Source: a virus
Reading direction: 5' to 3' (one strand)
DNA length: 21,297 bases
IMG/VR virus record: IMGVR_UViG_3300033273_000082
Coordinates: 1 to 21,297 of that record
Shown here piece after piece: positions 2,044 through 13,039 of this stretch; position 1 is the stretch's first letter, and every line of letters starts with the position of its first letter. A program made the position numbers and the translations under genes. Under the pieces are notes generated by a model. The model searched no databases, was not told where the DNA came from, and worked only from the letters and a program-made list of their open reading frames with translations.

Positions 2044-4336
2044 TGCAAGCGTCGCAGTCTGCTTCGTTGCCCTCTAGGATCTCGTCAATAAGATTGGCGA
2101 GGTTTGTAGATTTCTCATCTACATCAGGATCCTTTTTGTTGTCGTATGTGTTGTGGTAATAAGAAGTCTTCCATCCATACTTGTATGTAGTCAGAAAATC
2201 ATTTGCCATGACAGATACTGGCACCTCATTGTTGTCATAGTTCTCTGGGTTGTAACTCCAGTTACCACTGATCGCCTGATCAAAGAACTTTTGCATTACA
2301 GCAATGACCTTGATGTATCCTTCGTTGGAAGGCATGTCCCAGAGCAGAGTGTAGTTGTTCTTCAGGGTAGCATATTGCGGAACAATCTGCTTAAGGGGTC
2401 CTTTCTTAGACTTCTTAACGGACAGGAAGTCACGGGGAGGTTCGATTCCGTTTGTAGCATTTGACACAATGGAACTGCTCTCCGATGGCATCTGTGCGGA
2501 CAGTGTTGAGTTCCTAAGACCGTACCGAATGATATCATCCCTAAGAGATTCCCAATCATAGAAGTATGCAGGTGCAACGATTTCGTCTATATCCTTCTTA
2601 TATGTGTCGATCGGTAGGATACCGTCAGCATACTTGGTGCGAGAGAACCCTTCACAAGCACCAACCTCTTTGGCAAGTTCGTTGGATGCCTTGAGGAGGA
2701 AGTATTGGAATGCTTCAGTCAGTTTGTGTACCTCAGTATATGCTGCGGCGTCACTGTACTTGTAACCCTTCCTGGCGAGGTAGTGTGCCAGACCGATGTA
2801 TCCGATGCCTAGGGAGCGACGGAAGAGGGTTGAACGCCTCGCTGCAGCAACAGGGTACCCCTGGTAATCAATAAGTGCATCCAAACCACGCACTGCAAGG
2901 TCTGCCAGGTTTTCCATCTCATCGATTGCTTTGATCTTGCCCACGTTAATAGCGGACAGAATACACAGAGCAATCTCACCTGCCTCATCATCAATATGCT
3001 TGATGGGATCTGTGGGGAGAGTGATCTCCTGACACAGGTTGGACATGTTCACCTTGTCCTTGAAGGAAGAGTGCGAGTTGCAGTGGTCGATGTTCATGAT
3101 GTAAACACGACCAGTCTCAGCACGCTCCTTCAGGAGATCCAGGATGAGGTTCTGTGCATTGACGATTGAACGGGGGATACGTTTGTCCTGTTCGTAGCGA
3201 ATATACATGCTATCGAAACTGTCAGTGCCGAAAGCGTCATAAAGACCAGGGACATCATGAGGACTGAAGAGTGAAATGTCCTCGTTGCGGATGAATCGCT
3301 CATAGAAAAGTTTGCTGATCTGAATAGAGTAATCTAGTTTACGAACTCGGTTGTCCTCAGTGCCTTTGTTGTTCTTGAGGACTAGGATGTCTTCGATTTC
3401 TTGGTGCCAGATTGGGAAGTGGACAGTCGCGCTTCCGCCTCGTATGCCATTTTGAGTGCAGCATCTGACAGTGCTCTCAAACTTTTTGAGGAATGGTACA
3501 ACACCCGTGTGCTGAACTTCTCCGCCTCTGATCTTACTGTTGATGCCACGGATTCTACCTGCGTTGATACCGATTCCTGCGCGTTGAGCAACATAATAGC
3601 CAATAGCCATGTCACTGCTAAAGATGCTATCGAGGGTGTCATCAACATCAACAAGAACACAGCTCGCAAACTGTCGAAGTGGAGTTCTAACCCCTGCCAT
3701 GATAGGTGTGGGAATGTTGATTTTGTGCTTGCTGATTGCGTTGTAGTATCGTCGGACATAGTTGAGTCTCGTCTCTTTAGGATACATTGCGAACAGAGTA
3801 GCAGCAATCAGAATATACATGTACTGAGGTGTCTCGTACACTTGACCGCTACTACGGTCCTGTACAAGATATTTATCTACGACCTGTCGCAGACCAGCAT
3901 ATGTAAACAAATAGTCACGGTCATGATCAATGAACCCATTGATCTCATTCCACTCTTCCTCACTGTATACGTTGAGAAGTTCTGCATCATAGGCACCCCA
4001 CTCAATACCACGAACCACCTGATTATAGAGGGGGATGTGGTTGTCTGGGTGATCCCAGTACACAGACTTACGAAGAGAGAACAGCAGCAGACGTGCTGCC
4101 ACATACTGATAGTTGGGTGCTTCCAAACTAATCAGATCATTTGCAGAACGAATCAAGATCTCTTGAATGTCCTTGGTCTCAATGCCGTCAAAGAACTGGA
4201 GGTTAGCACTCATCTCCACCTGACTCTCAGACACACCTGCAAGACCTTTGCAAGCGTGCTCTACCATAATGTGAATCTTGTCCAAGTTTAGTTCTTCAGA
4301 AGAACCATCACGCTTGACAACTGTGATCTGACTCAT
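2036..4336 (-). CDS. nrdA: Ribonucleoside-diphosphate reductase, alpha subunit (class Ia)
   Basis: This is the large catalytic subunit of aerobic ribonucleotide reductase and the partner of NrdB. Residues ~1-90 form an ATP-cone (VVKRDGSSEELNLDKI...), so allosteric activity control is probably retained. The redox pair is visible as Cys226 (FASCVL) and Cys458 (ALCILSAIN). The active-site trio Asn433, Cys435 and Glu437 lies in NLCQEITLP. The C-terminal YY pair in TSYYHNTYD fits the radical-transfer tyrosines, and the tail ends in CDAC, the cysteines that re-reduce the active site. At 766 aa it is full length, with no intein or intron interruption. The ATG at 4336 overlaps the primase stop (ATGA) and has GGAAAAAGG just upstream. 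A TTG start four codons earlier is less likely. Confidence 0.98.
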   Translation of the reverse strand: MSQITVVKRDGSSEELNLDKIHIMVEHACKGLAGVSESQVEMSANLQFFDGIETKDIQEILIRSANDLISLEAPNYQYVAARLLLFSLRKSVYWDHPDNHIPLYNQVVRGIEWGAYDAELLNVYSEEEWNEINGFIDHDRDYLFTYAGLRQVVDKYLVQDRSSGQVYETPQYMYILIAATLFAMYPKETRLNYVRRYYNAISKHKINIPTPIMAGVRTPLRQFASCVLVDVDDTLDSIFSSDMAIGYYVAQRAGIGINAGRIRGINSKIRGGEVQHTGVVPFLKKFESTVRCCTQNGIRGGSATVHFPIWHQEIEDILVLKNNKGTEDNRVRKLDYSIQISKLFYERFIRNEDISLFSPHDVPGLYDAFGTDSFDSMYIRYEQDKRIPRSIVNAQNLILDLLKERAETGRVYIMNIDHCNSHSSFKDKVNMSNLCQEITLPTDPIKHIDDEAGEIALCILSAINVGKIKAIDEMENLADLAVRGLDALIDYQGYPVAAARRSTLFRRSLGIGYIGLAHYLARKGYKYSDAAAYTEVHKLTEAFQYFLLKASNELAKEVGACEGFSRTKYADGILPIDTYKKDIDEIVAPAYFYDWESLRDDIIRYGLRNSTLSAQMPSESSSIVSNATNGIEPPRDFLSVKKSKKGPLKQIVPQYATLKNNYTLLWDMPSNEGYIKVIAVMQKFFDQAISGNWSYNPENYDNNEVPVSVMANDFLTTYKYGWKTSYYHNTYDNKKDPDVDEKSTNLANLIDEILEGNEADCDACNV

Positions 4337-5328
4337 ACCTTTTTCCAATCAGTAAACTTAAGTTTTGCTTCTAAACCCTGGTAGGTATTACATTCTACCA
4401 TGTGCTGCACGTCACGTCCAGCGAGTACCATATCATTTAGGTCTTTTTCCTTCACCTCTTTGGGGAAGATTACCACCTTGTATCCCTTTGCGATGGTCTC
4501 AGATATCTTAGATACGATTTCCCTGTTCCTTGGTTCGTTGTCGTAGACGAATACAGTTCCACTATCGAAACTGCTACTGTTAACATCGCTACCACACATA
4601 GCAATAGCGTTCCTAAGGAAATAAGAGTCGATGGGTCCCTCTGTGACATAGATAGTCTCCTCACGATTGACACGTTCTAGACCAAAGAGTTTGGTCTTAT
4701 CCTCATCAAAAAGGATTGTGATGTACCTGAGTTTTGCCTTGGGTGCAAGTGATCGCCCCTGTACGCCAAACCATGTACCATCTGGATCAATAAGAGGCAA
4801 GATGATTCTGGGTTGATCGTTCTGCAAGTTAGCAAACGTCCCAGGTTTCTTACTATTGATCCATCTCTTGAACTTGTCGGTATAAAAAATGGAAGAGAGT
4901 TTGTCCTGAGGGATCTTCCTTTCTTCCAGATAGACGCGAGCGGGGTGTGTGTTATTTAGCTCTGAAATGGATGTTAGGTCTGATACTTCTTGAGCAAACG
5001 AAGGTTTACCGCTAGTCCATTTAGGTCTAGCAGTACGTCTTCCCTTACCAGTAGCACCGTGCCGATACTTCTCCATGATGTATTCGTCATGGAGATCATA
5101 TGCATTATCTTTAAGAAAGTTTGCAACTGTTCTACCGACACCACAGTTGTGACACTTAAAGATAAACTCCGATCCCTTCAGAAAGAAATACCCCCGTGCC
5201 TTATTCTTGTGCTTCGCTGAGTCACCACAATAAGGACAACGGAAGTTGTACAGTCCAGACTTTACTGACTTGAACTTCTCTAACCGACCACCAACGAATC
5301 GGATGTACTTGTCGTCGATGAAGTCCAT
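4333..5328 (-). CDS. 61: DNA primase, T4 gp61-like
   Basis: The primase makes RNA primers for lagging-strand synthesis together with the gp41 helicase, which is encoded in the same window. The N-terminus has a zinc-ribbon with Cys31 and Cys34 (CPYCGDS) and Cys59 and Cys62 (CHNCG). A TOPRIM-like core follows: Glu230 in VTEGPID, the acidic DNE at 263-265, and KDLND near 295. The length of 331 aa fits T4-type primases. The ATG at 5328 has AGGTGG upstream and lies inside the last 49 nt of the preceding coiled-coil protein gene. The stop overlaps the nrdA start (ATGA), so priming and dNTP synthesis are on one transcript. Confidence 0.95.
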   Translation of the reverse strand: MDFIDDKYIRFVGGRLEKFKSVKSGLYNFRCPYCGDSAKHKNKARGYFFLKGSEFIFKCHNCGVGRTVANFLKDNAYDLHDEYIMEKYRHGATGKGRRTARPKWTSGKPSFAQEVSDLTSISELNNTHPARVYLEERKIPQDKLSSIFYTDKFKRWINSKKPGTFANLQNDQPRIILPLIDPDGTWFGVQGRSLAPKAKLRYITILFDEDKTKLFGLERVNREETIYVTEGPIDSYFLRNAIAMCGSDVNSSSFDSGTVFVYDNEPRNREIVSKISETIAKGYKVVIFPKEVKEKDLNDMVLAGRDVQHMVECNTYQGLEAKLKFTDWKKV

Positions 5329-5747
5329 GCCACCTGCTCTGCTACAGGTATCCTACTCGTGCTTGGGGATACTGTCAAGACTTTGATAATGGGTGGGACC
5401 ACTTGTAACACTGCCACAAGGGTAGCGAGAACAGCACCAGCACCGATCACAAACTTAGCATTGGTGTCTACTTTCTTCTGGAGAGCAGTAACCCTATTGT
5501 GGATGGTTTCGTTATCTTTTTCATGACGTTCTTTCATCTCCTCAAGCATCTTGAGGATCAACTGGTCGGAACGTTCGCTTTCATCCAGTCTATTCTCATG
5601 GCGCTCCAAGATAATAGCAACCCTATTGCTATTTTCCGAGATAGTCCCGACTGCTTTTTCAAGTTTGTCAAGCATCTCTTTAGAGAGGTCTTCATAAATA
5701 CCAAGTTTGCTTTCAAGGACCGCTAGTTTATTAAGACCGAATGCCAT
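5280..5747 (-). CDS. Coiled-coil protein with C-terminal membrane segment (155 aa)
   Basis: No family is assigned with certainty. Residues ~10-95 are a long charged, heptad-like coiled coil. They are followed by one hydrophobic segment at about 97-123 (FVIGAGAVLATLVAVLQVVPP) and a Ser/Thr-rich tail of ~30 residues. This order, coiled coil then C-terminal transmembrane helix, resembles XhlA-type haemolysin or holin accessory proteins and some phage membrane-tethered proteins, but that is an analogy from layout only. The ATG at 5747 lies 5 nt after the stop of the 131-aa protein gene. The last 49 nt overlap the primase start. The Ser/Thr tail (STTSTSDS) is encoded largely in that overlap, so its composition may reflect constraint from primase. 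Confidence 0.8.
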   Translation of the reverse strand: MAFGLNKLAVLESKLGIYEDLSKEMLDKLEKAVGTISENSNRVAIILERHENRLDESERSDQLILKMLEEMKERHEKDNETIHNRVTALQKKVDTNAKFVIGAGAVLATLVAVLQVVPPIIKVLTVSPSTSRIPVAEQVAWTSSTTSTSDSLVVG

Positions 5748-5752
5748 GACCG

Positions 5753-6148
5753 TTAGTGTGCAGGTGTATTACCCTTAATCACATCCATACGCTTGTCATA
5801 GAAATACTTAATGACTTCGTTGGGATACAGTCTCTGAACAGTAATCTTCTTCATCATCTCTGGTCTGTATGCTTTGCGGAGCATGATCTTTGCTTCGCCT
5901 TCAGACTTCGCGTAGATTATGAAATCAGTTTGACCATCATAAACTACCTTATAGGGGAGGTATCTTCCTTGCCCATGCTCTTCACCGAGATCGGTAGAAA
6001 TCATGTCACGCATGGAAGCAACATACTTACGCTTCTTCTTAGGACCCTTGCGTGTCAGACGAGTCAGACCAGGGGGCTCATGTGCAGGAGGCAGTGCTGT
6101 CTCTGCTCCCGTACCTACTGAGTTAGTTGGTGCTTCTTCGTTAATCAC
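5753..6148 (-). CDS. Hypothetical basic protein (131 aa)
   Basis: The product is not recognised. Residues 1-30 are Pro/Thr/Glu-rich and look disordered. A very basic patch follows (RKGPKKKRKYV, about 33-43), then a compact domain with alternating beta-like and helical segments (PYKVVYDGQTDFIIYAKSEG, then EAKIMLRKAY). The basic patch could bind nucleic acid or the membrane surface. The start is GTG at 6148, which overlaps the stop of the upstream gene as GTGA. No earlier ATG gives a better start. It lies in a run of four tightly spaced genes leading to primase, so expression with the replication genes is likely. Confidence 0.75.
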   Translation of the reverse strand: MINEEAPTNSVGTGAETALPPAHEPPGLTRLTRKGPKKKRKYVASMRDMISTDLGEEHGQGRYLPYKVVYDGQTDFIIYAKSEGEAKIMLRKAYRPEMMKKITVQRLYPNEVIKYFYDKRMDVIKGNTPAH

Positions 6149-6516
6149 AATGCGTCCAGGATTGCCTTTACGTTTTTATCAATGCTTACATGATGTAAAA
6201 CCCCGTTACCTGTTTCGGGATACCGATTGAGGTATACGAGGAATGTTTTCAAGATGGACCAGTATTCTTTCTCAAGTTTATACATGAGTAGAGGAATGGT
6301 CGCGTCACCGAAAACATTAAAAAGGATAATAAGATGGTTGAGAATCAAGTTAACCCTTAACACTTCGGAGTTCAAGTACCTTTTGAAAAGTCTCTTAAGG
6401 TACTTGAACTTCTTCATGTCTTCCATAAAGTCATCCACTGTCACAGACAGTGGATTTTCATAATGCTTTATGGCGAATAGTAAGTGGTTGTTCTCATTTA
6501 GTTCTTCAAAATACAT
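6145..6516 (-). CDS. Hypothetical helical protein (123 aa)
   Basis: No family is recognised from the sequence. It is predicted all-helical: amphipathic segments such as VTVDDFMEDMKKFKYLKRLFKRYL, then a hydrophobic region at about 54-75 (VNLILNHLIILFNVFG) that looks like a buried helix rather than a clear transmembrane segment. The ATG at 6516 lies 21 nt after the stop of the Ig-like virion protein gene. No good Shine-Dalgarno is seen, so it may rely on read-through translation or an unrecognised signal. It is the first gene of the set leading to primase and nrd. Confidence 0.78.
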   Translation of the reverse strand: MYFEELNENNHLLFAIKHYENPLSVTVDDFMEDMKKFKYLKRLFKRYLNSEVLRVNLILNHLIILFNVFGDATIPLLMYKLEKEYWSILKTFLVYLNRYPETGNGVLHHVSIDKNVKAILDAL

Positions 6517-6537
6517 ACATTACGAGAACATTGTTTA

Positions 6538-7122
6538 TCAGGTGCCGAATGTCAGAGCAACAGCAGTAGAGATTACCTCAGGTGCACCAACGTCAGCATT
6601 CAACTTGACGCGATACTGGTCACCATCGTTGCTTGCAGTCTGACCTGCGAGAACCAGGGATGCAGAAGTTTCACCACTGACGTTGGTCCAGCGGCTGCCA
6701 CCAGATGCCTTCTTCTGCCACTGATAGGTAACAGTGCCGCTGTTGTCACAGGTAGCAGTAACGCTGAAGGTTGCTGCGCCAGATGCAGTGGTCTGTGCGG
6801 TGGGTTGTGCAGAGATGGTGATGGTTGCCTGTACGTCTGCTGCGATTGTGTCATCGCTCAGGGTCTCGTCTGCGTTCGCTTCAGGGTTGCTAATGAATGC
6901 GAGCATTTCTGCCTTGTGACGGGTGTCACCATTAGCAGTTGTGTAGGTGCGATATGCCCACCAACCAGGGGAGGACAGACCACGCTCTTTGTTTGCTGCA
7001 AGACCTGCTTCGGTCTCGTCAACGAAGACGATCGTTTCGGTTACAGAGCCCGCACCATTGCCTCGGGCGAGTCCTGCTTGTGTTTGATTTTCTACTGAGT
7101 CAGTTCTCCCGTAAAGAGACAT
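6538..7122 (-). CDS. Probable virion protein with C-terminal Ig-like domain (194 aa)
   Basis: The N-terminal ~75 residues (MSLYGRTDS..., FVDETEAGLAANKERGL, PGWWAYRTYTTANG) resemble a cyanophage structural-protein module with a WW-aromatic core. The C-terminal ~95 residues (about 100-194) form a Thr/Ser/Ala-rich Ig-like beta domain with TVTYQWQKK and a DGDQYRVKL strand in place of the usual DxGxYxC. Ig-like domains on tailed phages often decorate the capsid or fibres and bind carbohydrate weakly. The ATG at 7122 has TTTGGAG 8 nt upstream. A TATAAATA late promoter lies 28 nt upstream of the ATG, consistent with late structural expression. The exact virion position is unknown. Confidence 0.8.
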   Translation of the reverse strand: MSLYGRTDSVENQTQAGLARGNGAGSVTETIVFVDETEAGLAANKERGLSSPGWWAYRTYTTANGDTRHKAEMLAFISNPEANADETLSDDTIAADVQATITISAQPTAQTTASGAATFSVTATCDNSGTVTYQWQKKASGGSRWTNVSGETSASLVLAGQTASNDGDQYRVKLNADVGAPEVISTAVALTFGT

Positions 7123-7150
7123 GTTGCTTACTCCAAAGTTCCAGTATAGT

Positions 7151-7158
7151 TATTTATA
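7151..7158 (-). promoter_or_regulatory. T4-type late promoter TATAAATA
   Basis: This is an exact match to the T4 late-promoter octamer on the minus strand, in intergenic DNA and 28 nt from the ATG of the Ig-like virion protein gene. The same spacing is seen for the CATAAATA element before the plus-strand gene at 21069. T4-type late promoters need only this -10 element, read by the phage sigma factor gp55. Confidence 0.8.
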
Positions 7159-7159
7159 C

Positions 7160-7179
7160 AAAGGGGGGATTGTCCCCCC
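7160..7179 (-). terminator. Hairpin, probable rho-independent terminator
   Basis: A perfect 7-bp stem, GGGGGGA paired with TCCCCCC, with a 3-nt loop occupies 7163-7179. On the minus strand it is followed by TTTG. It lies 8 nt after the stop of the 59-aa protein gene and just before the late promoter at 7151-7158. It therefore separates the 13008-7187 block from the Ig-like protein gene. The short T-run makes termination efficiency uncertain. Confidence 0.6.
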
Positions 7180-7186
7180 CTAGGTA

Positions 7187-7366
7187 TCATTCCTCATCTT
7201 TCTTGAAGAGAAGTGCTTCAACTACATCGACAGCACCGTCGTCTAGTTTATTATCCGTGGACTCTGCAAGAGAGCGGAGAACGGTAACAAGATAGCGGCG
7301 GACTTCTTCACGGTAAATCAGATGACCGAGTGTTTTCTTAGCAAGAGGAAGTAGAAGTGCCCACAT
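7187..7366 (-). CDS. Small hypothetical protein (59 aa)
   Basis: A complete short reading frame runs from ATG at 7366 to TGA at 7187. It is preceded by GGAG about 8 nt upstream and sits in otherwise empty space between the 128-aa protein gene and the terminator. The peptide begins MWALLLPLAKKTLGHLIYRE and then forms a helical region (EEVRRYLVTVLRSLAEST) ending in an acidic, hydrophobic segment (DDGAVDVVEALLF). It looks like a compact amphipathic helical protein rather than a membrane protein. Placement at the end of the putative late block suggests a small structural or accessory role. No family is recognised. Confidence 0.72.
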   Translation of the reverse strand: MWALLLPLAKKTLGHLIYREEVRRYLVTVLRSLAESTDNKLDDGAVDVVEALLFKKDEE

Positions 7367-7404
7367 GAGATTAGCTCCAACTTAGGACTAATCTATATAG
7401 GTGA

Positions 7405-7791
7405 TCAGTTGATTCCGAAACGCTTTCTATCGTGCTCGATAGTCTGTTGCATCAGGTTCATTCTCTCCATCATGCGACGGGAGATCTCTTCTTCCTGTGC
7501 TTTCAGTGCTTCTTGAAGTTCAGCATCAGTGTGAGTTGTTTCCTCGTTCTTCTTGCTGAACTTGCCATTAACCTCGCCCTTCTCGTAACCAACGCCGTCG
7601 CCGTCGTCGTCCCACCAACGATTCGCTTTCTTGCAAGCGTCTTTGGACTTCTTCTTGGCTGCTTCCTTGAGTCCCTCAAGTTGACCGTTGATTTTTCTTC
7701 TAAGAGATTCCTTCATGAGATCTTCCTTTTTGGGATTGATGATAACGTTGCCCTTCTTTTTACTAGGGGTAGAGTTTGATTCGGATGTCAT
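7405..7791 (-). CDS. Hypothetical protein with EF-hand-like acidic loop (128 aa)
   Basis: The protein is highly charged and Lys/Glu-rich. Residues 1-55 are basic (PSKKKGN, KEAAKKKSKDACKKA). A striking WWDDDGDGVGYEKGE motif follows at about 59-73, resembling an EF-hand or dockerin calcium loop (DxDxDG) with Gly where the last ligand Glu is expected. The C-terminal ~40 residues are a charged amphipathic helix rich in Glu, Met and Arg. Motifs of the type WWDDDGDG recur in cyanophage virion-associated proteins (recollection, not tested here). The start overlaps the stop of the 507-aa gene as ATGA, so it is translated with that gene. A structural or head-associated role is inferred from context. 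Confidence 0.78.
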   Translation of the reverse strand: MTSESNSTPSKKKGNVIINPKKEDLMKESLRRKINGQLEGLKEAAKKKSKDACKKANRWWDDDGDGVGYEKGEVNGKFSKKNEETTHTDAELQEALKAQEEEISRRMMERMNLMQQTIEHDRKRFGIN

Positions 7792-9311
7792 TCTTGTTCT
7801 CCAGAGGTCTCGTCCTGCTGGGTAGTATATCCCAGGGCGTCGCGCCAGCTGTAGGACTCGCCCATTCTACGTGCTACGTTACGAGCACCGCGAGAAACTG
7901 AGCGGGCGGCGGAACCGATCGCTCTCTTAAGACCTGCTTTGATGCGGTCGCGGAGGCGAGGACGATTGGATTGTTGTGTGCTAGAGGAGGAGTCAGAGGA
8001 GGACTTGCTAGCAGTAGAGGACTGGGTGCTTGCACTACCAGTTCTTTTAGCACGAGCAGCAGCATAACCAGATGCAAATCCACCTGCAGCAGCACCAGCA
8101 ACCTCGCCAGCACCCCTAGCAACCTTCTTCACACCACTGCCTGCTGCCTTAGCGGCACCGCCGACTGCTTTAGCACCCGACTTAGCAGCGGATCCCACCT
8201 TGCTTGCACCTGCCTTGACTGCATCCTTTGCAGCACCAGCAGCGTTCACTGCTTTACCAGCAGCAGAACCAACAGCGGAACCTGCCTTCTCTGCACCTTT
8301 CTTGATTTTACTAGCGGCAGACTTAACTGCTGCTTTCATCTTCTCCTTACGGAGGTTACGACGACCTGCTCTAGCTGCAGGAGTCTTTGCTGCAGCCTTG
8401 GATGCTGCAACTGCCGAGTCATAATAACCCTCAGAGAGAAGAGTCATATCATCGATGATCCCAAGTGCCTCAGCGAGCAGACCTTCTTCCTGGTCCAGTT
8501 CCAGAAGTGTTTCTTCTGCAATCAGTTCCAGTTCTTCAAAGGTCAGAAGATCGAACTCGTCATCATCAAAATCGATGAATGATTCAAGATCAAAACCTTC
8601 TTTCTTGGTCTTTGCCTTATTTGCTGCTTCAATCTCTTTGTTCTGTCTCATGATATCTGCGATGCTACCAGAGATACCAGTGAAACCTGCCTTAGAGGGA
8701 TCAGTTTGCTTCTTAGAATCGTCCTTATATCCACCAGCGGCACGGGCGGCACGACGATTCTCGTCTAACTCAACCTCTTCCTTCTTGCAATCGGGAACTT
8801 CCTTGCCACCCTTCATCTTGGTTCCCTTTGCCTTGTAACCCTTCCAGCAGGAGGGTTTGTTGGGATCCATACCGATGTTCTTGCGTGCCTGCTTCAGACC
8901 CTCATGGATCTCATCAGCATCGACACCTACAACCGACTCCTTGGTGACGACACCGAGGTCCGCAGGATCCTTAGCAGTCTTAGTGCCGTCCTTGGTGACG
9001 ACTTGATAACGACCATCCGACTTGCGACCAGTGATCAGGAGTTGTGTACCACCCATCTGGATGACACGACCGACGTTACGGTCCTGACCCTTCTTGGAAT
9101 CGATTTTTGCCTTGTCCACAGGGAACCCAGCGTATCCTTCAACCACGGGGGGTTCTGCTTCCTCAGAGAGGATAGTGGATACTACATCGAAACCTTTCTG
9201 GAAACGAGTTCCAGTTGGGGTCTTGCCTTCCTTAACACAGGAGAGAATGTATTGCTGATCGGCAAAGGTGTACCCCATTAGGGCTGCCGATACTCGGATA
9301 TCAGTTGTCAT
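7788..9311 (-). CDS. Basic Ala/Lys-rich protein, candidate internal head protein (507 aa)
   Basis: Three zones are visible. Residues 1-~235 are polar with a conserved-looking segment (GMDPNKPSCWKGYKAKG). Residues ~237-300 are very acidic and contain several (I/L)xE sites followed by a small or acidic residue: LIAE, LLAE|A at 281/282 and LLSE|G at 294/295. Residues ~301-507 are Ala/Lys/Gly/Ser-rich and strongly basic, like a histone H1 tail, with near-repeats of the GAKAVGGAAKAAGSG type. The T4 prohead protease gp21 cuts after (I/L)xE, and T4 internal proteins are small and basic after processing. The layout therefore fits a precursor whose basic part is packed with DNA. The start has TAGGAA just upstream, 3 nt after the previous stop. 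No catalytic domain is seen. Confidence 0.8.
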   Translation of the reverse strand: MTTDIRVSAALMGYTFADQQYILSCVKEGKTPTGTRFQKGFDVVSTILSEEAEPPVVEGYAGFPVDKAKIDSKKGQDRNVGRVIQMGGTQLLITGRKSDGRYQVVTKDGTKTAKDPADLGVVTKESVVGVDADEIHEGLKQARKNIGMDPNKPSCWKGYKAKGTKMKGGKEVPDCKKEEVELDENRRAARAAGGYKDDSKKQTDPSKAGFTGISGSIADIMRQNKEIEAANKAKTKKEGFDLESFIDFDDDEFDLLTFEELELIAEETLLELDQEEGLLAEALGIIDDMTLLSEGYYDSAVAASKAAAKTPAARAGRRNLRKEKMKAAVKSAASKIKKGAEKAGSAVGSAAGKAVNAAGAAKDAVKAGASKVGSAAKSGAKAVGGAAKAAGSGVKKVARGAGEVAGAAAGGFASGYAAARAKRTGSASTQSSTASKSSSDSSSSTQQSNRPRLRDRIKAGLKRAIGSAARSVSRGARNVARRMGESYSWRDALGYTTQQDETSGEQE

Positions 9312-9314
9312 TTC

Positions 9315-10388
9315 CTATACTTTTGCGGTCGGTCTTTTATTATTTAGTCTTCTTTTGAAGTCTGAAAACTTGATTACCCCCTGACCAGGGGTCATGGCTT
9401 GGACTTGTTGTCGGTAAACATCGCTACCTACGGTCCATTGATTACCACTGTCACCTTCACAATCTGCAGAATAGTTTGATTGATCATTCACTTCAGTAAT
9501 GTGTTGCAACCATGAGCGGAACTCATCGCCGTGCTCATCCTTAAAGATTGCATAGTTGGGACCACGATGAACGATGGTTCCTCTAATGCCTGTATCATCA
9601 TGCTCCACAAGTGTTCCCACTTGGAAGATTTGATTGATGACATACTCTTCACGGAAGGCACCGAAGTCTAGTTTCGGAGCATACTCCCAGAGGTGCATCT
9701 CTTTAACTGCCTTCTTCTTAGCAGGTTTCTTCTTATCCTCAGGCGGAGGAGTCATACCTGCCTTCACTGCTTGCATGAGTGCCATGCTGTCCTTCGGTTT
9801 CATATGCTTGGTCATGCCAGCATGGAAGGATTCATGGTCATCATTCTGAGTGTGAGCACGCATCTTACTGGCGCTCAGGTTCTCAATGGGATCTTCAGAG
9901 TCATCGGCACGTTTGCCAGCGGACTTGATATTTATAGACTTAAAGTCGTAGTGCTTACCGTTGTATTTGTGCAGAAGGTTTTCAAACTCCTTCACACGGT
10001 CGTCACCCACAACCATGGTTACATGCTCATGTCCTTCGTCATGTAGATCACGAAGGATGTCAAAGATATTACGGTGCGCTTCGTTGTTCTGGATCGCCTT
10101 ATCGTGATCGGGGAACATCTTACGCATGAATCCTACCTTCTCGTGTGCTCCGAGGGGATTCTTTTTATGGTCCTGGCTTCTGGAGGGATAGATGCGGTAG
10201 TTACCACTGTCCCCAGCATGTGCACGAACAGTATCAAGAAGCTTGCCATGACCAGCGTGCGGAGGATTAAACCTACCAAATGTAATAGCAACATGAGTAT
10301 CAATAGGTCCCTCTTGCTTTTTCTTGTCAGTCGGTTTCTTGGTGGCGGCAGTAGCAGTCGCCTCTGAAATGAACTGTTGGTACTTCAT
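9315..10388 (-). CDS. HxGH nucleotidyltransferase with capsid-targeting-like N-terminus (357 aa)
   Basis: Residues ~31-180 form a cytidylyltransferase/NMNAT-like Rossmann domain: FGRFNPPHAGH (38-47, nucleotide-binding HxGH), VVGDD (126-130) and LSASKMR (171-177, the ISxxxIR-type motif). Such enzymes transfer a nucleotidyl group from an NTP to a small phosphorylated substrate; the substrate here is unknown. A Lys/Pro-rich linker (~213-230) leads to a small beta-rich C-terminal domain (~250-300, VGTLVEHDDTGIRG). The first ten residues, MKYQQFISEA, resemble the capsid-targeting peptide of T4 internal proteins and contain an (I/L)xE cleavage site (ISE|A). The start at 10388 overlaps the ligase-like gene's stop as TGATG; an ORF extension three codons upstream is less likely. 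Confidence 0.88.
   Translation of the reverse strand: MKYQQFISEATATAATKKPTDKKKQEGPIDTHVAITFGRFNPPHAGHGKLLDTVRAHAGDSGNYRIYPSRSQDHKKNPLGAHEKVGFMRKMFPDHDKAIQNNEAHRNIFDILRDLHDEGHEHVTMVVGDDRVKEFENLLHKYNGKHYDFKSINIKSAGKRADDSEDPIENLSASKMRAHTQNDDHESFHAGMTKHMKPKDSMALMQAVKAGMTPPPEDKKKPAKKKAVKEMHLWEYAPKLDFGAFREEYVINQIFQVGTLVEHDDTGIRGTIVHRGPNYAIFKDEHGDEFRSWLQHITEVNDQSNYSADCEGDSGNQWTVGSDVYRQQVQAMTPGQGVIKFSDFKRRLNNKRPTAKV
9341..9348 (-). promoter_or_regulatory. Weak late-promoter-like ACTAAATA
   Basis: On the minus strand ACTAAATA lies 30 nt before the ATG of the 507-aa protein gene, the same spacing as the clear late promoters in this window. It matches six of the eight TATAAATA positions. It sits inside the end of the nucleotidyltransferase gene, so it may simply be coding sequence. 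Confidence 0.22.
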
Positions 10389-11581
10389 CAACCCCAATCT
10401 TTCGCAACGGTAAAGTTTGCCCTTGAAAACTCAAGTCTATCGACAAGTTTCATGGCGGTGCCATCTTTGATGGCGACAAATCCCTCAGGAGATGTCACAC
10501 GGTATCCATTCTCATCCTCAAGAAAGGTGCCCACACCCTCAATCTTCTTCAATCGTTCGATGATCTGCTGTTTAGCAGTCATAAGATTTTTGAATCCTGA
10601 GAGCGAAGCATAAATGGTATTCTTATTAGTATTTAGGTATTTTATAGCGTCCGCTTTCTTCTTCTCCCAGTCCTTCTTCGACTTCTCTGTCTTCTTCTTT
10701 GTGATCTCTTTGTCATATCGCGTTGCAAGGAACGCAACGAACCCTGTAGCCATCGCTTGAGCGTTTGTAGGAATGACACCACGGCGGATAACATCGTTGA
10801 AATAAATCTTAAAGACTGCCGCGTAGTCAAACGTCTTGGTACCACCACCGATAGCATCGAGGAAGTTCTTACCCTGTCCCAGGTTACGTTCTGCAACGCG
10901 GATACTGTTGTTGAGTTTAGTCAACTCAGTCTTGCTGAGGTTTGCCTTGCCACCAATGTTCTCAAACGTGGCAGAGAAGACAGCAACCTCAGTAACACCC
11001 TGCAGACCAGACACATCCACACCAAAACCAGCGTTCATCTCAGGAAGAGAAGCACCCCTGTAGTGGGTGTGGAACACGATGCCGAGGTTAGCAGCGCCGA
11101 CCTTGCGACCCAGTTCAGTGTCTGCCTCTACACAGTATGTGATGGTGTTAGGACGGAACTTATAGCACTTCTTACCACCCATGACGACCTTAGGAGGAGT
11201 AGAAGTGAAGAGGAGATCACCCTGCAGCACACCCTTAATGGGAAGTTTCTTGAGGGAACGATAGCACTGCTTCAGTTTGTCCTTGATGGGGTGATCGCCA
11301 TAGTAATAGTCGATCTGTTCTTCAGAGAAACATGCTTTGGATTCTGTCTTAGCGAAGACAGACTTGGTACCCACGAAAAACAACCCTGTCTGAGGATCTG
11401 TGCCGCAAAAGATTGCAGGGGCACCGTCCCACTTAACAGTGACCTTGGTGTTAGTACCACCGTGACCTGTGGTCAGCATGTCACGCAACGACTTGAGGAA
11501 AGACAGAGCGTTCTGTGCCCCCTTGTATCCGTTGTTGAAGATGTCGTCTTCGAGGTGTTCTAGGTGTGTGTTCTTTGCCAT
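10388..11581 (-). CDS. Ligase-like covalent nucleotidyltransferase family protein (397 aa)
   Basis: The protein carries motifs of the DNA/RNA ligase and capping-enzyme superfamily. Motif I is KWDGAPA (KxDG, with candidate nucleophile Lys50). A motif III-like GVLQGDLLF lies at 117-125. A motif IV-like PEGFVAI (EGxV) is at 365-371, and a motif V-like AMKLVDR is at 376-382. Members of the superfamily form a lysine-AMP or lysine-GMP intermediate and join or cap nucleic acid ends; the substrate here cannot be told. About 240 residues separate motifs III and IV, including a Lys-rich helix (~291-312), more than in minimal ligases. It may correspond to a family held in databases as a domain of unknown function. 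ATG at 11581 overlaps the 475-aa gene's stop (TAATG), and its own stop overlaps the HxGH enzyme's start. Confidence 0.82.
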   Translation of the reverse strand: MAKNTHLEHLEDDIFNNGYKGAQNALSFLKSLRDMLTTGHGGTNTKVTVKWDGAPAIFCGTDPQTGLFFVGTKSVFAKTESKACFSEEQIDYYYGDHPIKDKLKQCYRSLKKLPIKGVLQGDLLFTSTPPKVVMGGKKCYKFRPNTITYCVEADTELGRKVGAANLGIVFHTHYRGASLPEMNAGFGVDVSGLQGVTEVAVFSATFENIGGKANLSKTELTKLNNSIRVAERNLGQGKNFLDAIGGGTKTFDYAAVFKIYFNDVIRRGVIPTNAQAMATGFVAFLATRYDKEITKKKTEKSKKDWEKKKADAIKYLNTNKNTIYASLSGFKNLMTAKQQIIERLKKIEGVGTFLEDENGYRVTSPEGFVAIKDGTAMKLVDRLEFSRANFTVAKDWG

Positions 11582-13008
11582 TAGGGTTGCATTCCAATCA
11601 TGTCTTGAAAACCATTGAACGAGTTCTTAGAACGTAGTTCGACGGTCTGGTTGGGGTCAATGCTGTGGTAAGTCATCACATTACATGATGGGATACCGCT
11701 GGTTGCATTGATATCCATCTTTACATAGATAACTTTCTTAAGGACATACTCACGAAACATCTTGTTGAAGTTGAGTAGTCCGTCACTGTTTGCTTGGATG
11801 ATGATCTGCTCACACACATAGGCAAGGTTCTGAAGGGTGTAGTCTGTCTGTCCTGCGTATGTACTCAGTCTACTACGGCTGGCACAATATGTGGAGATGA
11901 GTGTGCGGAGTTGTGACTGGACCACCCCTGTCCCAAATGCCTGGGTCAAAGTGGTTCTGACTGTACCCTGTGCCCTAAACGCCAGTCCAGAGATCTGTCC
12001 AGGATCGGAGACGGATGACATGTACCGACGACCGAACGAGGGATCATCCTTTGCCAACTTCATCGCTGCACCGATCATTGCTTTGTATCCTGTAGGTGCA
12101 AATGCCAGGGTTTTATACAGGTTATACGCTGCTTTCTCAGGTCTTGCTGTAAGTGTGATCTCATACTTACCCCTGGTGCCATACGCCTCAATGACATCCA
12201 TGAAGGGTCCAGGTTTGATGGTGTTAGTAGCAGCAGATCTCTGTGCTTTAACACTAAATCCAACCTGACCATGGGGATCTTCAATAAGATAGAAGTCCAC
12301 CAGTGGTTCGTTACCTCTGGCAGGAAGAATGATCTTGGGATTATTGTAGAGATATGGTTCTCTCTTGGATATATCATCATGTAAGAAGCACATCGGTGCC
12401 AAGACCTCACCGAAGTTCACAACCATATCATCATGCTTGGGGATGTAAGGTTTCGCTGTCTGATATACCTCACGCACCTCACTAGCGGGACAGTTACCCT
12501 CAAAGTATTCTGCTAAGCACTTCAGGTATGCCTTAAGTGGAAGAGAGAAATCAGATCTTAGATCAATAGAAGTCTTCACCTGATCAATAAACTGCCTCTT
12601 GGTGTACTGCTTCGTATCACTTGCGAGGTTTGCAAAGTCTTGTGGTTTGAAACTAACCGAAGCAATCTGTGATCTGTTTCGTGTGCCTCTACCAATACTA
12701 ATGATTCGTCTATGTTCCTCCAGATCTGGGTGGTGCTCTATGACTGCTCTGAGGATTGCAGTCTCACCCCTCTCCTGAGTAAACCCCAGATATTGCCCCA
12801 CGTTAGGGGCAATCTTAAATATCATTTGACCCGTATCAACAGAGATGTTGATCGGTTCATTAGCAAATGGCAACTGCGAAGCAGGCTCAAGCATCCTCAT
12901 GATGTAGTCGTAGCAAGTCACGACATCATCTGTGTTGGGAGAGTCATTTGCATCACCAAGAGTCTGGATTTCATCCGAATCTCTTGGCACAAAAAGATAC
13001 TGTGCCAT
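11581..13008 (-). CDS. Hypothetical protein, possible PD-(D/E)XK-like core (475 aa)
   Basis: No confident family. One region looks like a restriction-endonuclease-like core: a helix with FGEVLAP (Glu201), then VDFYLIEDPHG (Asp238), then GFSVKAQ (SxK, Lys254) and a conserved-looking TNTIKPG. This E...D...SxK order fits a PD-(D/E)XK variant, but the call is by eye only. The rest has Arg/Lys patches (GRGTRNRSQ at ~107-115) and a C-terminal domain with mixed helices and strands. The ATG at 13008 directly follows a terminator T-run and has no Shine-Dalgarno except GAGGG in the hairpin. A late-promoter-like octamer lies 23 nt upstream of the ATG. It is the first gene of a coupled block with the ligase-like and HxGH enzymes. 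A virion-protein role is an alternative. Confidence 0.72.
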   Translation of the reverse strand: MAQYLFVPRDSDEIQTLGDANDSPNTDDVVTCYDYIMRMLEPASQLPFANEPINISVDTGQMIFKIAPNVGQYLGFTQERGETAILRAVIEHHPDLEEHRRIISIGRGTRNRSQIASVSFKPQDFANLASDTKQYTKRQFIDQVKTSIDLRSDFSLPLKAYLKCLAEYFEGNCPASEVREVYQTAKPYIPKHDDMVVNFGEVLAPMCFLHDDISKREPYLYNNPKIILPARGNEPLVDFYLIEDPHGQVGFSVKAQRSAATNTIKPGPFMDVIEAYGTRGKYEITLTARPEKAAYNLYKTLAFAPTGYKAMIGAAMKLAKDDPSFGRRYMSSVSDPGQISGLAFRAQGTVRTTLTQAFGTGVVQSQLRTLISTYCASRSRLSTYAGQTDYTLQNLAYVCEQIIIQANSDGLLNFNKMFREYVLKKVIYVKMDINATSGIPSCNVMTYHSIDPNQTVELRSKNSFNGFQDMIGMQP

Positions 13009-13009
13009 G

Positions 13010-13032
13010 AAAAAAGAGGGTGCTACCCTCTT
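13010..13032 (-). terminator. Rho-independent terminator directly before the 475-aa gene
   Basis: On the minus strand AAGAGGGT and ACCCTCTT form a perfect 8-bp stem with a 3-nt loop, followed by a TTTTTT run that ends one base before the ATG at 13008. It lies just after the stop of the 93-aa protein gene and would end transcripts coming from the replication operon. Confidence 0.85.
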
Positions 13033-13039
13033 ATTTATT
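13032..13039 (-). promoter_or_regulatory. T4-type late promoter-like AATAAATA overlapping a terminator
   Basis: AATAAATA on the minus strand differs from the T4 late octamer only at its first base. It abuts and slightly overlaps the 5' arm of the terminator at 13010-13032. It also covers part of the TAA stop of the 93-aa gene, so part of the match comes from the stop codon. A start 6-8 nt downstream would fall inside the hairpin. Confidence 0.55.

Follow-up and report, generated by a model that had tools for sequence, protein, structure and literature searches.

Which products of a tightly packed block of six genes in a T4-like cyanophage travel in the virus head, and by what signal would they get there? 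The block lies in record IMGVR_UViG_3300033273_000082 of such a phage (a marine cyanobacterial virus), whose 21.3 kb (21,297 nucleotides) were analysed as a whole and are called the window here. An initial annotation had read the six genes (genes 1 to 6 below) as a nuclease-like protein, a ligase-like enzyme, an HxGH nucleotidyltransferase, a basic protein with protease sites, a protein with an EF-hand loop and a 59-aa protein, and had suggested a repair or counter-defence system that is loaded into the head and acts at entry. We found that gene 3, the nucleotidyltransferase, starts with a predicted capsid targeting sequence of the T4 type, including an (L/I)xE prohead-protease site (I-S-E/A; here and below a slash marks the cut), and that orthologues of genes 3 and 4 are present in published virion proteomes. 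T4 marks the defence proteins that it injects with such a tag. Given this tag on gene 3 and the virion finds of relatives of two products, the viral DNA is probably accompanied into the host by at least some of the block's products. We consider it likely that the whole is a head-cargo operon of a T4-like cyanophage, in which the tagged gene 3 product is loaded, the gene 4 product is an internal protein and genes 1 and 2 encode their partners.

The tag is conserved throughout the close relatives: 93/93 close gene 3 orthologues with a complete N-terminus fit M(K/R/N)(F/Y)xxF(I/L)xEA, with F6, E9 and A10 invariant and either I or L at position 7, followed by a variable Ala/Lys/Ser/Thr/Pro linker and then by the HxGH domain. 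The T4 proteins ipII and ipIII start with MKTYQEFIAEA, T4 internal protein I (IPI) has MKTFKEF...ITE/A, and the tag of the window equals that of ipII/ipIII at 8/10 residues when one gap is allowed. The tag lies outside the 1-base overlap of gene 3 with gene 2. A homologue of the prohead protease is encoded by the nearest isolate, S-SZBM1 (gene 2 identity 76%), in whose capsid protein an ILTE/AA site resembles that of T4 gp23; for T4 itself, it has been reported that the tag is able to load foreign proteins into heads (PMC3012670). In distant relatives (loci L104, L114 and L166) the gene 2 product, a member of the DUF6267 family, is tagged at its own N-terminus.

The specificity of the motif was assessed with a strict pattern (M, 0-3 residues, F/Y, 2 residues, F/Y, I/L/V, x, E), which was applied to every possible start of open reading frames (ORFs) of at least ~50 codons; a looser pattern gave too many random matches in S-CREM2, and the strict pattern alone was used. 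Among 5365 starts in S-SZBM1 and part of T4 it picked out ipII, ipIII, gene 3, S-SZBM1_191 and S-SZBM1_192, along with one further match whose start is internal to an annotated gene. In ~95% of the S-CREM2 genome (3651 starts) it marked the cytidylyltransferase ORF154, the kinase ORF14 and the S-adenosylmethionine (SAM) hydrolase ORF6, together with two starts inside other genes. All three annotated genes encode non-structural enzymes that are among the published virion proteins (PMC10665884 Table 3); as 52/219 S-CREM2 proteins were detected in virions, three of three would be expected by chance in ~1% of cases. The background amounts to a handful of unlabelled matches in 26,518 distinct starts of related loci, including tagged neighbouring genes in L104 and L114. 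S-SZBM1_191 and _192 (L107) are small tagged genes of the structural region (MKSFKSFLSES and MKTFKQYITEA) and are absent from the published virion list. The S-CREM2 segment at 3837-12846 (L186, OR473000) encodes three virion-detected proteins with tag-like N-termini, the SAM hydrolase (MKDFDSFLEE), the kinase (MKRFDAFLTE) and ORF13 (MKDLHSFLTE), and the Cas9-like ORF12 of this phage has LRFASFMAEA at residues 17-26, starting at a CTG codon.

That cyanophage virions contain a 'cytidylyltransferase/NMNAT' (NMNAT, nicotinamide mononucleotide adenylyltransferase) is already known. Mass spectrometry of purified S-SZBM1 virions identified _139 (gene 4; 4 peptides), _140 (gene 3; 2 peptides) and the head protein _136 (PMC9146016 Table 1). 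Orthologues of gene 3 were likewise found in virions of S-SM1 (T4-GC190; PMC3037559), S-SCSM1 (NMNAT-like; PMC9602691) and S-CREM2 (PMC10665884), and the tag is present in 4/4 of the virion-detected orthologues examined, i.e. those of S-SZBM1, S-SM1, S-SCSM1 and S-CREM2. In GenBank, five products encoded one after another at the corresponding S-SCSM1 locus are annotated as virion proteins. The S-PM2 orthologue, S-PM2p139, has no tag and was missing from the virion proteins detected in this phage (PMC3037559), which is suggestive only, as several genuine virion proteins escaped detection in that study. DUF6267 is split at this S-PM2 locus (L004:5749-7528), and S-PM2p139 combines its C-terminal half with the cytidylyltransferase. 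Thus, of the six products that the initial annotation had placed in the head, 2/6 are found in the published S-SZBM1 proteome; head loading is backed for gene 3, by orthologues in virions and by the tag, and for gene 4, by an orthologue in S-SZBM1 virions, but not for genes 1, 2, 5 and 6.

As to what the tagged protein is, gene 3 matches phrog_395 and PF01467 (CTP_transf_like; 30.0 bits vs a cut-off of 21) and has intact PHAGH (HxGH) and SASKMR (SxxK(M/I)R) motifs; judged by its sequence, the product is a member of the HxGH nucleotidyltransferase superfamily (T4-GC190 'cytidylyltransferase', NMNAT-like). The best curated match is TIGR00482 (NMNAT; E=6e-6), at 26.4 bits vs the family cut-off of 112.45, and a sequence search of the PDB with gene 3 gave no useful match.

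The block is made up of six minus-strand genes bounded by mazG and a head-protein gene (Table 1). The minus strand of the window carries hsp20, g43, uvsX, a 2-oxoglutarate (2OG) oxygenase gene, g41, mazG, the block, the head-protein gene, g61, nrdA and nrdB, and the order of these genes around the block is identical in S-SZBM1 and S-WAM1. The ORFs confirm the tight arrangement described initially: genes 1/2 and 2/3 overlap by 1 base, genes 3/4 are separated by 3 nt and genes 4/5 overlap by 4 nt. A gap of 38 nt separates gene 6 from gene 5, so that the tight arrangement holds for genes 1-5 and gene 6 belongs to the block only in a loose sense.

Table 1. Positions in the window of the genes of the block, the adjoining head-protein gene, the predicted tag and the candidate expression signals
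Feature	Position	Strand	Remarks
Gene 1	13008-11581	minus	475 aa
Gene 2	11581-10388	minus	397 aa, DUF6267
Gene 3	10388-9315	minus	357 aa, HxGH nucleotidyltransferase (predicted)
Gene 3 capsid targeting sequence MKYQQFISE/A (predicted)	10359..10388	minus	predicted prohead-protease cut after residue 9
Gene 4	9311-7788	minus	507 aa
Gene 5	7791-7405	minus	128 aa
Gene 6	7366-7187	minus	59 aa
Head protein, adjoining the block	6538..7122	minus	phrog_613; orthologue S-SZBM1_136 found in virions
Late-promoter-like AATAAATA before gene 1	13032-13039	minus	overlaps terminator-like hairpin
Terminator-like hairpin, bidirectional, before gene 1	13014-13032	.	hairpin scan
Terminator-like hairpin after gene 6	7164-7180	minus	hairpin scan
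TATAAATA before the adjacent head-protein gene	7151-7158	minus	element scan

We compared the order of these genes across ~80 distinct DUF6267 loci and found it to be kept across related phages. Gene 1 lies immediately upstream of gene 2 in 44/60 loci with sufficient flanking sequence and gene 3 immediately downstream of it in 68/72; gene 4 comes next after gene 3 in 49/56, and gene 5 is present in 43/50. The blocks of S-SZBM1 and S-WAM1 (Kyanoviridae) share with the window the order of genes 1 to 5 and a tagged gene 3, but their gene 1 is only ~25% identical to that of the window and has a different N-terminal part. More distant viruses retain the set of genes 1, 2 and 3 (L114, L122, L166, L169-171), and natural fusions join gene 2 with gene 3 (S-PM2p139, phrog_455) and gene 3 with gene 4 (L104, L114). 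In one uncultured virus (L114:6621-8160) three consecutive genes with N-termini resembling head-targeting sequences stand between gene 1 and DUF6267. In bacterial genomes DUF6267 gave one match only, a gene 65% identical to gene 2 of the window on the 188-kb contig L190 of a Nonlabens xiamenensis assembly; this contig resembles a cyanophage genome contaminating the bacterial assembly, and it was rejected as a bacterial occurrence.

Gene 2 belongs to DUF6267 (PF19782, E=8e-128, 427 bits vs a gathering cut-off of 27) and contains the motifs K50xDG, Q120GD, F170HTxYxG, E366G(F/Y)V and K378xVxR, which vary little or not at all among 43 diverse homologues. We take these motifs to correspond, in this order, to the ligase motifs I, III, IIIa, IV and V. 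DUF6267 has KxDG, EG(F/Y)V and KxVxR in the order seen in covalent nucleotidyltransferases (DNA/RNA ligases, capping enzymes); it differs from them in that a long helical insertion separates motif III from motif IV, and in the lack of any significant sequence or fold match. The AlphaFold2 (AF2) model, made from 33 close sequences, is poor (predicted local distance difference test (pLDDT) 71.9, predicted template modelling score (pTM) 0.59). A Foldseek search with it gave no significant match (adenylation domains of NAD ligases were at ranks 11 and 16, E ~1.7; NAD, nicotinamide adenine dinucleotide), HHalign against T4 Rnl2 as a single sequence gave no match, and a PDB sequence search gave no useful match. 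A structure-based name for DUF6267 was therefore discarded in view of the poor model and the lack of any significant match, and the two NAD-ligase ranks were not counted as evidence. The ligase-like reading of gene 2 thus keeps its motifs, but the structure searches did not confirm it.

Gene 1 has no match in Pfam, PHROG, NCBIfam or PADLOC. Its homologues in 66 loci share the invariant residues E201, N233, D238 and S252-x-K254. In the AF2 model (mean pLDDT 85.8) E201 lies on helix 192-210, D238 at the start of strand 239-243 and the SxK of residues 252-254 on strand 247-255, so that E201, D238 and S252xK254 follow the order of helix and strands expected for a PD-(D/E)xK core. The signature resembles the core of PD-(D/E)xK nucleases, and 'nuclease' is to be understood here as a reading of this motif; the model had no fold match in the PDB, and its matches in BFVD were uncharacterised phage proteins only, so that the earlier term 'nuclease-like' stands on the motif signature but gained no confirmation from the structure search. 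At other loci, families such as phrog_1462 (S-SCSM1) and phrog_22045 (S-SM1) stand in the place of gene 1, where nuclease-like families of different kinds seem to replace one another. The phrog_1462 protein at this place, S-SCSM1_90 (L181:5459-6793), is labelled a virion protein; it has a PADIY...GVSLKK stretch that, judged by eye, is reminiscent of a PD-(D/E)xK core and may make the protein nuclease-like. A tag on gene 1, considered from MARTIKE/A in relatives, was rejected, since it is not conserved (e.g. MSSKLKDVW, MAGRKLEEV).

Gene 4 (phrog_27523) encodes a protein that is nearly neutral in its N-terminal part, acidic over residues 241-300 (net charge -22) and, in its C-terminal part, basic (net +29), of low complexity and rich in Ala/Lys/Ser/Gly. 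Its (L/I)xE sites are located at 271, 281 and 294 and recur in about half of 63 homologues. A short Cys-bounded motif, CWKGYxxxGTKxKxGKxVPxC, is shared by gene 4 (8755-8860 of the window) and the gene 3-4 fusion of L114, phage proteins that differ in other respects. Gene 5 (phrog_24377) encodes a small protein with a DxDxDG loop; the sequence named as its EF-hand loop (DDDGDGVGYEKGE) comes close to the canonical form but is not canonical. Gene 6 matches phrog_402 and encodes a small conserved cyanophage protein.

Terminators and late-promoter elements had also been described on both sides of the block. Hairpins of the terminator type are present at both ends and are more numerous in the region than expected (18 vs 6.9). 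Elements of the TATAAATA type are not above chance in the window alone (14 vs 10.5 expected); they gain credibility from the comparison of the 90 nt before each gene in distinct upstream regions, since NATAAATA is enriched before gene 1 (20 of ~48 regions) and before gene 4 (27/56), with 1/74 before gene 2 and 0/31 before gene 3 (together 1/105). Support for late expression of the block comes only from these conserved promoter-like elements. In L123-L125 gene 1 is immediately preceded by what reads as the tail of a tRNA gene and then an ATAAATA element.

In the head-cargo model, an N-terminal tag of the kind found on T4 internal proteins would bring the gene 3 nucleotidyltransferase into the prohead. 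There the prohead protease would cut it after I-S-E, and the mature enzyme would leave the virion together with the DNA. Gene 4 may encode a second internal protein, DNA-condensing or scaffold-like, that would also be cut at its (L/I)xE sites. Gene 2 and the nuclease-like gene 1 would be expressed from the same block and act together with gene 3, and the delivered enzymes would most likely process nucleic-acid ends or nicks at entry. With regard to the proposed counter-defence role, PADLOC found no match for genes 1-4; its models cover defence systems, and the result has little bearing on counter-defence. Several points weigh against this model. The S-SZBM1 proteins _142, _141, _138 and _137 (genes 1, 2, 5 and 6) are not among the 30 virion proteins (PMC9146016 Table 1), and no tag is seen on genes 1, 2, 5 or 6 in the lineage of the window. 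Gene 3 of S-RSM4 and of HTVC008M has no clear tag, the nuclease and ligase assignments lack structural or family support beyond their motifs, and cleavage and ejection of the gene 3 product are steps that we infer. In addition, the authors of the S-SCSM1 (PMC9602691) and S-CREM2 (PMC10665884) proteomes warn that abundant enzymes may co-purify.

If this warning applied to the block, the virion finds would be due to abundant late proteins carried over as contaminants, and the motif at the N-terminus would be a chance similarity or an unrelated helix. The 2 peptides for gene 3 in S-SZBM1 would fit such a case, but gene 3 was found in four phages by separate studies, and the motif is fixed in all close orthologues, falls outside the gene overlap and seldom occurs at other places in the genomes; we regard this explanation as very improbable. 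A more serious alternative, and the main one as to location, is that the products of genes 1 and 2 never enter the head and act only in the infected cell, in repair of DNA that is being replicated or packaged, and that only those of genes 3 and 4 are loaded. The block indeed lies amid replication genes (uvsX, g41, mazG, g61, nrdAB), and the virion list of S-SZBM1, which lacks the orthologues of both genes, agrees with this reading. The late-promoter-like elements before gene 1, the head tag on DUF6267 in several relatives and the 1-base overlap of gene 2 with gene 3, which suggests coupled synthesis, speak against it, and we hold replication-associated repair to be a genuine possibility, though one with the odds somewhat against it.

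The main alternative as to the substrate is NAD supply: gene 3 would be an NMNAT injected for NAD supply or against NADases at the start of infection, and the other genes would be a separate matter. NAD-related roles were suggested for the virion enzyme by the authors on S-SCSM1 (PMC9602691) and S-CREM2 (PMC10665884), and the best curated match together with the intact HxGH and SASKMR motifs points the same way. However, the TIGR00482 score is far under the NMNAT cut-off (26 vs 112 bits), ligase-like proteins and basic proteins of nucleic-acid type are the fusion partners or close neighbours of gene 3, and the block holds no other recognisable gene of the NAD pathway, which makes this reading rather unlikely in our view. 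An extended form of the head-cargo model would have the head carry a complete end-processing set (a new nuclease family, a ligase-type DUF6267 enzyme and the tagged nucleotidyltransferase) that acts at entry on the incoming genome or on nucleic acid of the host, and the tag would mark a larger group of injected enzymes in marine T4-like phages than has been recognised until now; as a whole, this is speculative, and we would not expect it to hold.

Among known systems, gene 3 is closest in its start to T4 IPI, IPII and IPIII, with which it shares the MK(T)(Y/F)xxF(I/L)xE/A tag, the protease site after IxE, a lysine-rich stretch after the tag and the occurrence of orthologues in virions; it differs from these small DNA-binding or inhibitor proteins, of which mature IPI acts as a nuclease inhibitor, in that the cargo is a 350-aa nucleotidyltransferase encoded in a multi-gene block. 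The T4-GC190 virion protein of S-SM1, S-SCSM1, S-SZBM1 and S-CREM2 is orthologous to gene 3 and its virion finds are published, but these reports mention neither a capsid targeting tag nor the linked block of DUF6267, gene 1 and gene 4. We found no paper joining capsid targeting sequences with cyanophages, and no description of the tag as a loading signal, of its predictive value for other virion enzymes or of the link to the DUF6267 block (subscription papers were outside the search), and these points appear to be new. Enzymes had been detected in the virions of several cyanophages with no known loading signal and with the concern of contamination; the tag offers both a mechanism and a test at the level of the sequence. 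DUF6267 and the unannotated gene 1 family thereby gain a physical context, and, if the model is true, the injected effectors of abundant marine phages would become readable from their genomes.

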